A DNA stretch of 64,000 nt from Halobacteriales archaeon YIM A00010 (GTDB taxonomy: Archaea > Halobacteriota > Halobacteria > Halobacteriales > Haloarculaceae). Positions 8,979 to 57,064 of the stretch are shown here, piece by piece. The notes beneath the pieces are model-generated. The model searched no databases, was not told the DNA's origin, and worked only from the letters and a program-made list of their open reading frames with translations. The stretch is taken from positions 62,001 to 126,000 of the forward strand of contig JAKCFJ010000002.1 of NCBI GenBank assembly GCA_025041175.1. Reading direction: 5' to 3'. The first letter of the stretch is position 1, and the number at the start of each line of letters is the position of its first letter. The translations under genes were made by a program, and so were the position numbers.

Positions 8979-9427
8979 TATTTGGTGTCGAACGGGCTCA
9001 TTCGACCGTTCATAATTGGTTCACACGGCCGATCCCCAGCCTGAGGATAGACGAAGCCCGGATCACGTTGTCAATGAAACCGTGATCCAATGCAACGACG
9101 AGAAAGCAACGATTGGCTGCTTGAGCCGACAACAACCACGGTTCTCGTTCATTCGTTTCTCACTGAACTCGCCGAGAAACACGATGATGACGAGGCTGTA
9201 GTTCTCGTTGATGGCTCGCACTCGGTACAAAATGTGTGTCATCGACACGGTTTCGATTTCAGATACGAACAGCATGGAAATCGGAACAGCGTCGAACGTG
9301 TCTTTATCGAGGTAAAACGACACAAATATTTGTTTTTAAACTGTTTTAGCAATACCCACGAAGAAACTGCAAACGAGTGGCTCAGATCGTTTGCTTTCGC
9401 ATGGAATCAGCGTATCTGAACACCACC
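8979..9427 (+). pseudogene. IS6-family transposase, decayed copy
   Basis: Broken by stops and frameshifts but clearly related to the intact transposase at 27843-28535: FGVERAHSTVHNW, then in another frame EAVVLVDGSHSVQNVCHRHG, FDFRYEQHGNRNSVERVF, ETANEWLRSFAFAWNQRI. The N-terminal 60 or so residues are missing. The terminal repeat (ATCTGAACACC) is still seen at 9415-9425. This copy lacks the 57-bp hairpin insert of its relative and so shows the ancestral sequence at that point. Confidence 0.8.
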
Positions 9428-24740: not shown

Positions 24741-24794
24741 GCTTTTGCACGGTGTGTGCAAACGGAATTCCGTTTGCACACACCGTGCAAAAGC
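24741..24794. repeat. 54-bp perfect palindrome made of two nested hairpins
   Basis: The 27-bp arm starting GCTTTTGCACGGTGTGTGCA is followed directly by its exact inverse; the centre is CGGAATTCCG. Each arm is itself a hairpin (TTTGCAC-GGTGT-GTGCAAA). It lies 25 bp before a serine recombinase start, so a recombination or regulatory site is possible. Confidence 0.9.
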
Positions 24795-27842: not shown

Positions 27843-28535
27843 TCAGATTAGCTGATTCCATGCAAAGGCGAATGATCTGAGCCACTCGTTTGCAGTTTCT
27901 GCGTGGGCATTGCTGAAGCAGTGTGAGAACGAAGAAGTTCTCCGTTTTATCTCACGAAAGACACGTTCGACGCTGTTCCGATTTCCATGACGTTCGTATC
28001 TGAAATCGAAGCCGTGTCGACGACACGCATGTTGTACTGAATGTGAATCATCAACGAGAACTACAGCGTTCACAAGACGCATGCGTCTTGTGTGCCCACG
28101 AGAACTGCATGCAGTTCTCGGGTCATCGTCAACATCATGTTTCTCAGCAATCTTAGTGAGAAATGAATGGGCGAGAGCCTTATTCGTGGTCGGCTCAAGC
28201 GTTGTATGGAGCGATTCGTTCGTGTCAGGATCAACTGCAGCGTACAGCCAATACTGCTCATCGTTGAGTCGGATCACGGTTTCGTCAACCGCAATGTGAT
28301 CCGGACTTCGTCCACCTTCGGGCTGTAGATCGGCCTTGTGAACCCAATTGTGAACGGTCGAACGAGGCCGTTCAACACCGAATACCTCAAGAATAGCAAC
28401 GGTATTCGAAAGAGATAGACCAGCAAGATGGAGCTGAATACCGAGCTTCATCAACAGTCGCGGTGTTGCTTCTCGCTCCATAAAATTCACGTCGATGTCG
28501 TCCAAACAACCGTTGAGGCGGTCGTTTTTGGGCAT
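27843..28535 (-). CDS. IS6-family DDE transposase with a 19-residue insert
   Basis: 230 residues. HTH part LHLAGLSLSNTVAILEVFGV and RPRSTVHNWVHKADLQPEGG; catalytic core HIAVDETVIRLNDEQYWLYA (D1), AVVLVDDSHSVQHACRRHG (D2) and RHGNRNSVERVFREIKRRTS (E). All three acidic residues are present. Between KHDVDD and AVVLVDD there are 19 extra residues (DPRTACSSRGHTRRMRLVN) coded by two perfect palindromes. The decayed copy at 8979 lacks them. The frame is kept; whether the enzyme still works is unknown. Confidence 0.9.
   Translation of the reverse strand: MPKNDRLNGCLDDIDVNFMEREATPRLLMKLGIQLHLAGLSLSNTVAILEVFGVERPRSTVHNWVHKADLQPEGGRSPDHIAVDETVIRLNDEQYWLYAAVDPDTNESLHTTLEPTTNKALAHSFLTKIAEKHDVDDDPRTACSSRGHTRRMRLVNAVVLVDDSHSVQHACRRHGFDFRYERHGNRNSVERVFREIKRRTSSFSHCFSNAHAETANEWLRSFAFAWNQLI
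28068..28124. repeat. Twin-hairpin insert in the IS6 transposase (57 bp)
   Basis: Two perfect 22-bp palindromes, 28071-28092 (CACAAGACGCATGCGTCTTG plus TG) and 28099-28120 (CGAGAACTGCATGCAGTTCT plus CG), joined by 6 bp. On the transposase strand it starts GACCC and ends GAAC. Compare 39020-39079 and 56679-56732. Confidence 0.9.
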
Positions 28536-37882: not shown

Positions 37883-39022
37883 ATGTACTACAACTACAGG
37901 TATCGATTGAACCCGACAGCAGACCAGCGTAAGACGCTGAACTACCACCGTGATACCTGTAGACAGCTCTACAACCACGCTCTCTATCGTTTCAATCAGA
38001 TTCCTGAATCGGCGGGGACACTCAATCAGCGCGTGCGAACAATCCGTGACGAACTCCCCGACCTCAAAGGCTGGTGGGACGCCTTGACTGACGTGTATGC
38101 GAAAGTGCTCCAACCCACCGTCATGCGGATCGAGCACAACGTCACGGCGCTCGGCGAACTCAAGGATCGTGGCTACAACGTCGGTGAACTCAAGTGGAAA
38201 CCACCACGGGAGTTCCGCAGTTTCACCTACAACCAGTCTGGCTTCGAACTCGACAAGAAGGGTGGTCAGACTGTGTTGTCCCTCTCGAAACTGGCGAATA
38301 TTCCGATTCGAATGCACCGACCACTCCCCGAAGCAGCGACGATCAAAGAGGTGACACTCAAGAAAGAACCGACGGGTGAGTGGTTCGCCATCTTCGGGAT
38401 TGAATTCGACCGAGACCCACCGGAGAAACCTGACGAAATTACTGACGCAGTAGGGATCGACGTGGGCATTCTCAACTATGTTCACGACACCGACGGAACG
38501 GCTGTCGGGTCGCTTGACCTCACTGACGAACGCGAACGACTGGAACGCGAGCAACGGACGTTGTCGCGCAAACAGCACGGGTCTAACAACTGGAAAAAGC
38601 AACGTCAGCGCGTTGCAGAGTGTCACGCCACGATCAAACGCAAGCGGCGGGACTTCCTCCACAAACTCTCGACGTACTACGCTACTGAGTACGATCTCGT
38701 CGCCGTTGAAGCGCTCAACGCCACGGGGCTGATGGAACTCCCATCGAACAGTCGTAATCGCGCGTCAGCTGCATGGGGTACCTTCCGGCGGATGCTCGAA
38801 TACAAGTGTGAACATAACGGCACACATTTCGTCGCTGTTGAGCCAGCTGGAACGACCAAAGCGTGTGCAGCCTGCGGTGTCTCGACCGATAAACCATTGT
38901 GGGTCCGCGAACACTCCTGTCCAAGCTGTGGCTTCGAGGCCGATCGAGACTGGAACGCAGCCTACAACATTCTTTCTCGGGGAATCAAGCACGTAGGAGT
39001 GGGACACTCCGAATTGACGTGA
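37883..39022 (+). CDS. tnpB: RNA-guided endonuclease TnpB (IS1341 type), C-terminus cut by a hairpin insert
   Basis: 379 residues. N-terminal WED-like strand (YRYRLNPTADQRKTLNYHRD), helical recognition region, RuvC parts AVGIDVGILNYVHD (Asp 193) and YDLVAVEALNATGL (Glu 276), zinc ribbon C328/C331/C346/C349 and EADRDWNAAYNIL (third Asp). The catalytic set is intact. TnpB cuts DNA guided by an RNA from the element's right end. The TGA at 39020 is the first codon of a 60-bp hairpin insert; after it the same frame resumes as PVETALPTGTTNVPAQRVVE and ends at 39184. Without the insert the protein would have 413 residues. There is no tnpA nearby. Confidence 0.92.
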   Translation: MYYNYRYRLNPTADQRKTLNYHRDTCRQLYNHALYRFNQIPESAGTLNQRVRTIRDELPDLKGWWDALTDVYAKVLQPTVMRIEHNVTALGELKDRGYNVGELKWKPPREFRSFTYNQSGFELDKKGGQTVLSLSKLANIPIRMHRPLPEAATIKEVTLKKEPTGEWFAIFGIEFDRDPPEKPDEITDAVGIDVGILNYVHDTDGTAVGSLDLTDERERLEREQRTLSRKQHGSNNWKKQRQRVAECHATIKRKRRDFLHKLSTYYATEYDLVAVEALNATGLMELPSNSRNRASAAWGTFRRMLEYKCEHNGTHFVAVEPAGTTKACAACGVSTDKPLWVREHSCPSCGFEADRDWNAAYNILSRGIKHVGVGHSELT

Positions 39023-39079
39023 TCCGAGAGACCTTCGGTCTCTCGTCATCACGAAAGGCGCAAAGCACCTTTCGAACGA
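39020..39079. repeat. Twin-hairpin insert in tnpB (60 bp)
   Basis: CGAGAGACC-TTC-GGTCTCTCG (39025-39045) and CGAAAGG-N9-CCTTTCG (39052-39074), flanked by TGATC and GAACGA. The length is a multiple of three, and the tnpB frame is the same before and after it. It introduces an early TGA. Confidence 0.88.
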
Positions 39080-40609: not shown

Positions 40610-40990
40610 GTGAACTACCTCACCTTACCACGCTCGGGGCTACTTGCCCCTTGCTTGTTGAGGGTGTCGCCAGACTACGTCTAGCTGTCACCGGCCTGTG
40701 GTCGGTTGCTTGAGGAGCTTTGCTCCTCACTGCTAACCAGATCGCGCTGCGTTCTGGTGATGGGATCTCGCAAATCACTACGTGATTTGCTGGATACGGG
40801 AAATCTTCGATTTCCGTGATCTCGCAAGAGCAACGCTCTTGCGGACCTCGTGGAGGTTCCCTCCGCTCAGTGACGAGACACTTCGTGTCTCGAACCACTT
40901 GACTCTGAGGCGGTTCACGAGCGACATGGCCACCGTTCTCACCGAATCGTCTCACTTCAAGCCGATGGGACGAGACAGGGCCGTCGATCG
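40610..40990 (-). mobile_element. TnpB-type transposon right end with a hairpin array (remnant)
   Basis: Read on the minus strand the segment ends GGTAAGGTGAGGTAGTTCAC at 40610, nearly the right end of the intact TnpB element (GGTAGGGTGGGGTAGTTCAC). Just before it the frame GDTLNKQGASSPERGKVR resembles the TnpB tail GSPTLNREPSGER. The remaining 250 bp is a chain of hairpins and no tnpB catalytic sequence is left. Possibly a PATE-like non-autonomous element. Confidence 0.5.
40636..40892. repeat. Array of ten mini-hairpins
   Basis: Stems of 4-10 bp with mostly 3-nt loops at 40636-40650, 40672-40682, 40690-40706, 40711-40729, 40736-40758, 40770-40790, 40799-40815, 40823-40843, 40843-40860 and 40874-40892. 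Examples: GCAAATCAC-TAC-GTGATTTGC, CGCAAGAGC-AAC-GCTCTTGCG, CGAGACAC-TTC-GTGTCTCG. Stem sequences all differ; linkers are mostly short (0-21 bp). Confidence 0.88.
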
Positions 40991-41026: not shown

Positions 41027-43660
41027 TTAGCGGCCGATATCGAGCAATATGTAGTCGTGGTCGGGAGTGTAGCGCCGGAACAGGAGACTGTTCGTGAGCA
41101 CCGACACCGACGAGAACGCCATTGCTGCTGCGGCCAATACCGGCTGGAGCAGTCCGAGCGAGGCCAGCGGAATCATCGCCGTATTGTACCCAAGCGCCCA
41201 GAAGAGGTTCTGTGTGATCTTCTGGAGCGTACCATCGGAGATGCGAATCGCTTTCACGACATCGAATGGATCGTCACGCATCAACGTCACGTCTGCGGCC
41301 TCGATCGCCACGTCAGTACCCGAGCCGATCGCTGTTCCAACGTAGGCAGTCGCGAGTGCTGGTGCATCGTTGACCCCATCACCGACCATCATCGCTCGCT
41401 TCTCTTCTGACTGGATGTCGTCGACGACAGCAGCTTTGTCCTCGGGAAGGACCTCTGCACGAACATTCGCGGGATCGATCCCGACCTGTTCGGCAACCGC
41501 ACGCGCCGTACGCTCGTTGTCGCCGGTCATCAGATGGATCTCGACGCCCCGATCGTGCAGCGCCGAGACGGCTTCGGTGGCGCTCTCTTTCACCGTGTCT
41601 GCATCGGCCACGAGACCGATCAGTTCGCCCTCATATGCGACGAGCATCGCGGTCTTGCCCTCGGTCTCCAGACGTTCGAGATCATCCTCGGCGGGCGCGG
41701 GATCGATGTCATTGTCACGCATGAGCTTGCGGTTGCCGACGAGTACCTCACCATCGTCGACAGTCGCGCGGACCCCGTGGCCCGGCACGTTCTCGAAGTC
41801 GATGGGATCGGGCACGTCGATCCCCCGCTCGGTGGCCCCCTCGACAATCGCCTGCGCAAGGGGGTGCTCACTCCCGGATTCGGCACTCGCCGCGATCCGG
41901 AGGACGGCCTCCTCGTCAGGTCCCGATACTCTATCAAGTCCGGACCGTTCTTGGAGTGCCTGCGCACCGCCGTCGGTCGCCGTCTTGGAATCATCACCAT
42001 TGGTGGCAGTGTGAGTTCCATCAAGGGAAACGACGTCGGTCAGTTCCATCTCACCCGCAGTGAGCGTCCCGGTCTTGTCGAACACCACCGTATCAACATC
42101 CTTCGCGCGTTCGAGGATATCGCCTCCCTTGAATAGGACGCCGTTTTTCGCCCCGATGGAGGTGCCGACCATTGTTGCGGCAGGCGTTGCGAGTCCCAAT
42201 GCACACGGACAGGCAATCAGTACTGCCGAGGCGAAGACAACCACTGCGAACTCGAAGATTGATACCGTGCCGCCAGCGACCGCCGGACCACCTTCGACAA
42301 GCCCCCACAACGGGAGCGCGCCGACGAATCCAGCGAGTGCTTCGGGGAACAGATACCAGACGATGCCCCAGAGTAGCGCATTCGCAATCACGATCGGGAC
42401 GAAGTACGCCGAGATGCGATCGGCGAGGTTCTGAATGTCAGGCTGTCGGCTCTGTGCCTCTTTCACCGTCTGAACGATCTGCTGGAGCGCCGTATCAGAC
42501 CCGACCTTGGTGGCTTCAACAGTGAGGACGCCGTTTTCGTTGATGGTCGAACCCACCACCTCGTCGCCTACCTTCTTCTCGACGGGCACCGACTCGCCGG
42601 TGACCATCGATTCGTCGACCGCTGACTGCCCGTCGACAACGGTACCGTCGGTCGGGATCTGCTCGCCCGGCCGGACCTTTATCCGGTCGCCGACGCCAAC
42701 GTCTTCAAGCGGAACCTCCTCTTCGTTACCCTCCTCGTCAACAACAGTTGCGGTGTCGGCCTCCATTTCGAGCAGTTGCTGGAGTGCCTCGCCGGCTTGG
42801 CCTTTCGAGCGGGCTTCGAGGTAGTTGCCGAGCGTGATGAACACGAGGATGAGCGCGGCCGTGTCGAAGTACAGACTCCCCGCGAGCACACCCAGTAGCA
42901 CGACCACCGAGTAGAGATAGGCCGTCGAGGAACCGAGCGCTATCAGCACGTCCATGTTCGCGGTGTGGTTCTTGACGAGCGCCGTGTAGGCGTTCTCGTA
43001 GAACGGCCGCCCGAGTACGATTTGGACGGGGGTCGCAAGCAGGAACTCCACCCAGCCGAACTCCACGCCGAAAATCGTCTCGGGGAGTGCGCCGCCGCCC
43101 AACAACAGCTTCTCGACCATGAACGCGATCAGCGGCAGCGATAGCGCCGCGCCGAACAGCGTGAGTCGAAGTTGGCGGCGGATTTCGCCCTCGCGTGCGG
43201 CATCACGGCGGTCCTGCTCGGATTCCTCACTCCCGTCGCCGCGCACGGGCGAGTAGCCGGCGTCCTCGATCGCGTCGTACAACTGCTCGCGGGTAACCTC
43301 TGCTGGGTTATACTCGACAGTCGCCTCGTCAGTCGCGTAGTTAACCTCTGCCGAGAGAACGCCCGGTACGTCCGTGAGTGCTGTCTCATTCGTTTCGGCG
43401 CAGTTCGCACACGTCATATCTGTGATCCCGATCGACGCCGAGGTACTCACTGCGCTGTACCCGGCGTCCTCGATCGCTGTATAGACCTCCGCCAGCGTCG
43501 TATCCGTGGGATCGTATGCAACGCGCCCCTCGTCAGTGGCGAAATTGATCGTCGTCTCGTTCACCCCATCGAGCGCTTCGACAGCCTGCGTTATCGTCTG
43601 GGAACAGTTCGCACAGCTCATCCCCTGAATATCGAGCTGTGCTGTTCGTGATGTCATCAA
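41027..43660 (-). CDS. copA: Copper-translocating P-type ATPase
   Basis: 877 residues. Two N-terminal heavy-metal domains (GMSCANC 13-19, DMTCANC 81-87), eight membrane helices, the ion-path motif [20 protein letters not shown] (about 484), phosphorylation site [18 protein letters not shown] (Asp about 527), HP motif [15 protein letters not shown] and hinge [20 protein letters not shown]. The CPC plus C-terminal YN and MxxS motifs ([27 protein letters not shown]) define Cu+ exporters (PIB-1). It removes cytoplasmic copper. The sensor gene lies 101 bp upstream on the same strand. Confidence 0.95.
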
Positions 43661-56489: not shown

Positions 56490-57064
56490 ATGGAACTCGA
56501 CATTCGACGCCACCTTGCTGATCTTTCTCGTTCGGATACTGTTCGAGAAGTAGAAACGTACGGTGTCGAACGATCACGAACGGTCGTGCGACTGGGTAGA
56601 CAAGTGCGATCTACAGCCGATCACTGGCGCTTCGTCGAACTACGTTGGATTGATGAGCAGCAGTATTGGCTGTCCGCAGTCACCAGAACTCTGTGAGTTC
56701 TGGCTGGCTCATCAGACTACCGTCTGATGAACGCTATCGATCCTCAAACGAACAGACTGCTGCACAAACGGCTGTTTTCGACGGCTACAATCACCCTTAC
56801 TGAAATATCTCTGCGAGAAGTGACCGGAAACACGACGTCAAGAACGCCATGTCTCTCGTTGATGGAGCAAAACAGCTTCAGTCGGCACTCCGTCGCTGAA
56901 GACTCCAATTCCAGATACAAACGCCGCGGACATCCGAATGTCGAACGTGTCTTTCATGAGGTAAAACACCACACTTCTTCGTTTTTAAATTGTTTCAGTC
57001 ACGCGAAGCCAGAAACCACAGAATCGTGGCTCTAATCTTTTGCTGTTTGGCATAATGCTACAAA
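56490..57064 (+). pseudogene. IS6-family transposase, decayed copy with hairpin insert
   Basis: Related to 27843-28535: LDIRRHLADLSRSDTVREVE, TYGVERSRTVVRL, WIDEQQYWLSAV, then after the insert NAIDPQTNRLLHKR, and RGHPNVERVFHEVKHHTSSF LNCFSHAKPETTESWL. Several stops and shifts. A 54-bp twin-hairpin insert splits the first catalytic region. Confidence 0.8.
56679..56732. repeat. Twin-hairpin insert in a decayed IS6 transposase (54 bp)
   Basis: CCAGAACT-CTGTG-AGTTCTGG (56683-56703) and TCATCAGAC-TACC-GTCTGATGA (56709-56730) joined by 5 bp; begins GTCA and ends AC, so that the whole reads GTCAC...GAAC. The intact transposase has nothing at this point. 54 is a multiple of three, but the insert contains an in-frame TGA. 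Confidence 0.88.

Follow-up and report, generated by a model that had tools for sequence, protein, structure and literature searches.

Short palindromic repeats that lie inside genes are a bacterial feature in the literature that we found (Rickettsia and other CGTC/GTAG carriers). The Rickettsia palindromic elements are about 150 bp long, and many of their copies lie in frame in unrelated conserved genes (PMC10969869, consulted in part). CGTC-tagged REPs are described from bacteria, with five phyla named (Di Nocera 2013, PMC3733652, consulted in part), and archaeal REPs are reported in general terms by RepRanger, in a text that contains no word starting with 'halo' (PMC12306157). SMR-A, SMR-B and the PATEs of Haloquadratum walsbyi are transposase-free and are reported to target IS605-type elements near palindromes; the SMRs show no target duplication, and their families are without sequence similarity to each other (PMC3119063, in the portion used here).

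Here we describe a 57-bp twin-hairpin insert in an IS6-type transposase gene, which is probably a copy of a non-autonomous two-hairpin element dispersed among haloarchaea, the hairpin arms of which would be rewritten jointly at the DNA level. This form, distinct in its two hairpins, is common across haloarchaea, and core metabolic enzymes have gained segments of whole codons from it. Its varied yet error-free stems and inverted loops open an old question to testing, namely whether the two arms of a palindrome are rewritten jointly at the DNA level, and by which enzyme. No description of the family was found in the literature searched, subscription papers lying outside its scope.

An in-frame twin-hairpin insert in an IS6-type transposase gene

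The window, a stretch of 64,000 nucleotides, is part of contig C2 of the 5.97-Mb host genome (G000). The gene and its decayed relative are laid out as follows.

27843-28535, minus strand: IS6-type transposase gene, an ORF of 230 aa that holds the insert in frame
28068-28124, minus strand: 57-bp twin-hairpin unit of type A, GAC-C-HP1-TGGGCA-HP2-AAC on the coding strand
28099-28120, minus strand: HP1, a perfect 22-bp palindrome, CGAGAACTGCATGCAGTTCTCG
28071-28092, minus strand: HP2, a perfect 22-bp palindrome, CACAAGACGCATGCGTCTTGTG
9119-9360, plus strand: decayed IS6 relative with an empty site, without the insert

A sequence-only reading of this DNA had described a twin-hairpin insert that leaves the frame of the transposase intact and is missing from a decayed relative, and each of these points was confirmed. 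The insert comprises 57 nt with two perfect 22-bp palindromes 6 bp apart, and adds 19 codons to the 230-aa minus-strand ORF between KHDVDD and AVVLVDD; the relative near 9119-9360 lacks it. Three stems of 11 bp were found in the whole window, as compared to 0.2 on average in dinucleotide shuffles (n = 5). The transposase was named IS6 on the basis of annotated plasmid relatives and a narrow Pfam score, 27.1 bits to DDE_Tnp_IS240, which is barely above the cut-off of 27.

Further hairpin units were present elsewhere in the window.

56679-56731, plus strand: second twin-hairpin unit, adjoining an IS6 remnant (69% identical stretch, 56854-56998)
40705-40761, plus strand: type-B twin-hairpin unit with spacer CTGCTA and tail GAT, in a short array
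40770-40892, plus strand: more hairpins of the same array (40770-40790, 40799-40815, 40823-40843 and 40874-40892)
39025-39074, plus strand: hairpin pair 3' of tnpB, outside the gene, with the plan HP-TCATCA-HP-AAC

Inserts of the same plan had been claimed at 56679 and 39020. The first was upheld. The second does share the plan but is not an in-gene insert, since the pair at 39025-39074 follows the tnpB stop (ORF 37883-39022); its second hairpin is imperfect, with a 7-bp stem and a 9-nt loop. The array at 40662-40892 consists of one type-B unit and further pairs, some with the spacer TGGATACG, and adjoins a large minus-strand ORF (41027-43660) that by eye is an apparent metal-transporting ATPase. 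The window also contains a perfect 54-bp palindrome at 24741-24794, with 27-bp arms and no loop, far longer than the stems of the twin hairpins.

Plan, abundance and spread of the units

The canonical unit can be written as GTC-hairpin-TGCTA/TGGCA-hairpin-GAT/AAC and spans 57 bp, the length reached if both hairpins have 23 nt. Two main types were seen, A (GTC-HP1-TGGCA-HP2-AAC) and B (GTC-HP1-TGCTA-HP2-GAT). Unit lengths ranged from 45 to 59 bp and the encoded peptides were variable. Units occur throughout the host genome in either orientation, singly or in arrays of up to nine hairpins, within which neighbouring units share one orientation. In a scan of 864 kb (464 kb of contig C2, window included, and 200 kb each of C4 and C1), we counted 52 pairs of adjacent hairpins lying 2-8 bp apart, where dinucleotide shuffles yielded 2.3 on average, and the spacer TGCTA, on either strand, made up 37 of the 206 short inter-hairpin spacers counted. 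A foot and spacer pattern (GTCRCC, 9-19 free bases, GGYTGCTARCC) gave 41 matches in the host genome and none when reversed as a control, while a covariance model gave 155, both strands counted.

We then surveyed the order with the covariance model, scoring at most 19 candidates per genome. Matches with an E value of 1e-6 or better were obtained in 186 of 293 genomes and 67 of 87 genera, and in a sample of the phylum the model matched 12 of 120 genomes, 11 of the 12 within the order. A weak match outside the haloarchaeal order lies at 4314-4369 of contig C71 in genome G338 (E 2.4e-7). Units were present in eight haloarchaeal loci, and the named carriers include Halorubrum, Halolamina, Halalkalicoccus, Halorientalis and Halocatena. 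When an overly loose pattern was run across genome contigs, most of the matches listed looked like chance, in bacteria. Viral carriage of the units found no support in a search of viral contigs with one 25-base pattern, which had no match there; a looser pattern might differ.

Comparison with described elements

Like the Rickettsia palindromic elements, the haloarchaeal units lie in frame in unrelated conserved genes (ppc, purL, GH3, AMP-binding and IS6). Compared by description, those elements measure about 150 bp and have a conserved encoded peptide, whereas the units have 45-59 bp and variable peptides. The units also differ in being archaeal and in having two separate hairpins, with stems that vary between copies yet pair perfectly (PMC10969869, in the part consulted).

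The CGTC-tagged REPs, as described in the portion of PMC3733652 used here, have an unpaired tag at one end, and the units likewise begin GTC, often after T or C. A tag of the CGTC/TGTC type is seen in 63 of 68 type-B units, which end GAC and hence begin GTC on the other strand, the preceding base being uncounted. Also common to both are stems of 8-9 bp, dimers, in-gene copies and the lack of a linked transposase. However, the loops of the REPs have 4-5 nt, as against 3 nt, mostly in the form C(GNA)G, in the units, where 250 of 304 hairpins have loops of this size. REP tails are of 3 bp, mostly CCA, as opposed to TGCTA, TGGCA, GAT or AAC in the units. Clusters of REPs are rare and head-to-head dimers predominate, in contrast to the common one-orientation arrays of units, with up to nine hairpins. 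Finally, G-T pairs are said to be frequent in REP stems, and are almost absent from the units (PMC3733652, same portion).

The units resemble the SMRs and PATEs in being haloarchaeal, with many of them inside tnpB end hairpins. SMR-A, of about 110 bp with terminal inverted repeats and conserved within its type, differs by description from the units, which are shorter and have variable stems; PATEs are described as having palindromes close to their ends that resemble those of IS605-type elements, and as being moved in trans by TnpA; the part of PMC3119063 used here describes neither a twin-hairpin plan nor variable stems for SMRs or PATEs. The covariance model had no match in the H. walsbyi plasmid PL47. 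Double-hairpin elements of fungal mitochondria (Paquin 2000, as cited in PMC5910586, consulted in part) can be likened to the units by description, with two adjacent hairpins and a proposed mobility, but they belong to organelle DNA.

Filled and empty sites among IS6 copies

A 201-bp IS6 probe had 43 matches in the host genome. The insert was found at exactly the same place in five copies (that of the window and L039-L042), while the site was empty in nine other non-duplicate copies of the host genome and in all 14 scored copies from relatives. One filled copy (L040) and one empty copy (L053) are 97.2% identical over 636 sites, indicating that the insert is no constant component of the IS. Between IS6 lineages the insert is identical over 55 aligned bases, with flanks there 86-88% identical. 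In more distant copies (L043, L044, L045 and L046), the flanks of which are about 59-79% identical in those measured, this site is occupied by a related twin hairpin whose loops have changed. The first stem also recurs, with a different loop, in locus L392 of G062, a member of another genus in which the IS6 copy shows 50-62% protein identity.

The possibility that the insert is an ordinary part of this IS, raised by the sequence-only reading itself, therefore holds in one respect, as IS6 copies with 59-88% identity and the G062 copy have a twin hairpin at the same codon, and fails in another, as a copy 97.2% identical to a filled one is empty. Since most copies lack the insert and the 97%-identical pair differs by it, we rejected a fixed part of the IS. 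The aligned copies suggest either repeated gain or loss of the insert at a single site, or hairpins that have been kept uniform.

A decayed IS6 copy (L043, 1080-1740) holds two separate hairpin arrays with nine and seven perfect hairpins. Near position 1501 of L387 and L388, from two genomes of one genus, there is a type-A-like unit whose first stem is that of the window insert, adjoined by an apparent tRNA 3' end. The same first hairpin lies in G065 and G300 outside an IS6 gene, adjoining what by eye is a tRNA 3' end.

Inserts in conserved genes

Four other interrupted genes were named by Pfam, encoding ppc (L092), a GH3 glycosidase (L301), purL (L273) and an AMP-binding enzyme (L074). Against the nearest relatives the inserts measure 153 nt in ppc, 216 nt in GH3, 51 nt in purL and 57 nt in the AMP-binding gene, all whole codons; against other relatives, which differ by at least one codon nearby, the ppc insert measures 150 nt and the GH3 insert 198 nt. 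The site was empty in 12 of 12 relatives with a match for ppc, in 12 of 12 aligned relatives for purL (a 13th matching relative, whose coordinates coincide with those of another, was omitted), in 3 of 3 relatives compared for GH3 and in 2 of 2 for the AMP-binding gene. Units were also found inside tnpB ORFs (L271 and L261), adjoining tnpB genes and in many other places. The ORF in L261 (1452-2675, 407 aa) has four hairpin pairs inside its open frame.

Tolerance of the units within genes, which had been proposed for transposase genes, thus holds, but it is not special to transposases, and tolerance in transposases only was rejected, given the inserts in ppc, purL, GH3 and AMP-binding genes. Mobility of the units is well supported, and with it the earlier suggestion of a tiny mobile palindromic unit, as the units recur in numerous unrelated positions and relatives show the sites empty.

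The PurL insert reads KGLRPSGSQKPEASGDS (or the same shifted by DS); it follows the N-terminal part and precedes the AIRS domain. AlphaFold models of the transposase and of PurL, which are middling (mean pLDDT 58.3 and 68.6, respectively), gave a pLDDT below 50 for residues 135-158 of the transposase, where the insert stands just before the VLVD strand, and for residues 51-67 of PurL. This suggests that the inserts in both proteins may form flexible loops. In-gene copies are putatively translated.

It had also been asked whether insert lengths are always multiples of three. They are not, since this is true of only 46 of 68 type-B units; inside genes, however, all five inserts compared (57, 51, 153, 216 and 57 nt) consist of whole codons and are open in frame. 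The latter result bears on whether the insert is skipped rather than translated, through ribosome bypassing or splicing, such that any length would be tolerated. In-gene hairpins as small as these are reminiscent of the byp elements of yeast mitochondria, but skipping would not require whole codons or an open frame, and we find it scarcely credible.

Arm pairing and loops

The 41 pattern matches in the host genome were picked without reference to their inner arms, which the pattern leaves unconstrained. These arms, of which 24 are distinct, nevertheless formed 225 Watson-Crick pairs, one G-T pair and no mismatch. When arms were swapped, so that the 5' arm of one unit faced a 3' arm of equal length from another, we counted 553 Watson-Crick pairs, 78 G-T pairs and 157 mismatches. 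In other genomes, 26 of 42 matches had 148 Watson-Crick pairs, six G-T pairs and nine mismatches in 163 arm pairs, a count that left out 16 matches from G002 (coordinates identical to those of G006), G004, G016, G034, G038 and G061; the imperfect units among them indicate that decay happens. The suggestion that the insert represents a way of writing new hairpins fits these data, in that stems differ and pairing stays perfect.

Covariation of this kind would also be expected if the hairpins acted as RNA, in a regulatory or guide role, with the arms held together by selection on RNA structure. It is strong in A2, where 15 of 20 pairs changed on both sides, although the rows of A2 were chosen for perfect pairing, so that pairing is overstated and the 41-match count is the fairer one. 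Selection at the RNA level would, however, tolerate and leave G-T pairs, and only 1 of 226 pairs was of this type, which makes a DNA-level cause likelier. Moreover, the units lie in either orientation and inside unrelated genes, and a search of six loci gave no match to an Rfam family, so that a known RNA family was set aside for these loci. We consider a function as RNA improbable.

Among the 304 hairpins, the 250 loops of 3 nt were closed by C-G in 244 cases, and 192 of the 250 read GNA or TNC, where one in eight would be expected if bases were uniform; this count took in perfect hairpins only, excluded 8 of 103 clusters that were judged by eye to be background, and did not fix unit orientation. 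C(GNA)G loops form unusually stable DNA mini-hairpins. With unit orientation fixed, and using only the 90 of 154 matches that have a 3-nt loop, 10 of 17 stems with several loops included two loops that are reverse complements of each other, against an expectation of 4.2 (p = 0.0015). GNA and TNC were about equally common (33 and 39 of 90), and a strand preference therefore lends no support to a single-stranded intermediate.

Perfect arms, a variety of stems and loop inversion are also what one would predict if there were no mobile unit and polymerase template switching wrote the hairpins locally, at slightly palindromic sites. Local writing would not, however, create a fixed plan with TGCTA/TGGCA spacers and GTC/GAC ends across genera, and units that resemble each other at unrelated loci, with a clean empty counterpart, have largely been seen already (GH3 and AMP-binding). 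We regard this explanation as very improbable.

Entry sites, nesting and possible modes of movement

Comparison of filled and empty sites gave the junctions GAC^ACC for the AMP-binding gene, GAC^AGT for GH3, GAT^AGC for purL, GAC^GGT for ppc, AGC^ATC for IS6 (other strand) and TC^ATCA for the tnpB end pair. In type-B units, 63 of 68 end GAC and 58 of 68 begin ATC. We read from these few sites a refinable rule in which units would enter after GAC or before ATC. The repeated end bases (GAC, ATC) are short and missing at some sites, and the insertion chemistry is therefore uncertain.

The same flanks surround the tnpB 3' ends at 8793-8887 of L083 and 10420-10463 of L088, but L083 has one hairpin pair more, and its first loop is inverted (GAA for TTC). 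This indicates nesting and flipping in place. Units nested within the tnpB end pair were also found in L132, L180 and L365-L377.

Taken together, we favor a unit of about 45-57 bp, with the plan [ATC, AGC or GTT]-hairpin-spacer-hairpin-GAC on one strand, that would enter next to GAC or ATC. Entry beside or inside earlier units would let arrays grow, and units inside genes would be kept when they add whole codons to a loop. The units would be moved in trans by an enzyme that acts on DNA hairpins. During replication or transposition one arm would be copied from the other, possibly through fold-back priming on a stable loop, with the hairpin occasionally flipped; we infer arm copying because this single process would account for arms that match perfectly, for new stems and for inverted loops. 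Perfect pairing could instead come from strong selection on DNA hairpins. Tentatively, and with some doubt, the units may represent a class of mobile twin-hairpin DNA in which copying rewrites both arms, so that a novel hairpin with perfect arms can arise at each jump, through selection or priming by ultra-stable C(GNA)G loops, and which has seeded in-frame loops in core enzymes.

As for the enzyme, the units may be fragments from the ends of IS200/IS605-type (tnpB) elements, comparable to the short Haloquadratum PATEs, and be moved in trans by the Y1 transposase through recognition of the hairpins at those ends. The plan does recur in a hairpin pair 3' of tnpB (39025-39074), with similar pairs in L063, L083 and L088, and units often nest inside the tnpB end pair. 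Y1 (PF01797) occurs in 183 of the 293 genomes surveyed, and it accompanies units above chance if phylogeny is ignored, with 131 genomes having both, 55 units only, 52 Y1 only and 55 neither (Fisher p = 0.0003). However, Y1 was absent from 15 of 37 unit-rich genomes, although the gene may have been lost from these, and with so weak an association we rejected Y1 as a required partner. In addition, the stems vary far beyond what is expected of a recognised end, and there are two hairpins per unit, as opposed to the single one that the 52-bp terminal-only elements keep after deletion between palindromic repeats (PMC3119063, in the part consulted). We therefore judge an origin as IS605-type ends to be possible but unlikely, and retain a dispersed two-hairpin element with jointly rewritten arms as the preferred explanation. 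Near 1504-1554 of L363, L368, L369 and L375, units lie in a conserved context, TGAGGGTGTC...GATGGGGCTT, which is found in more than one genus and is an apparent end of a tnpB element.
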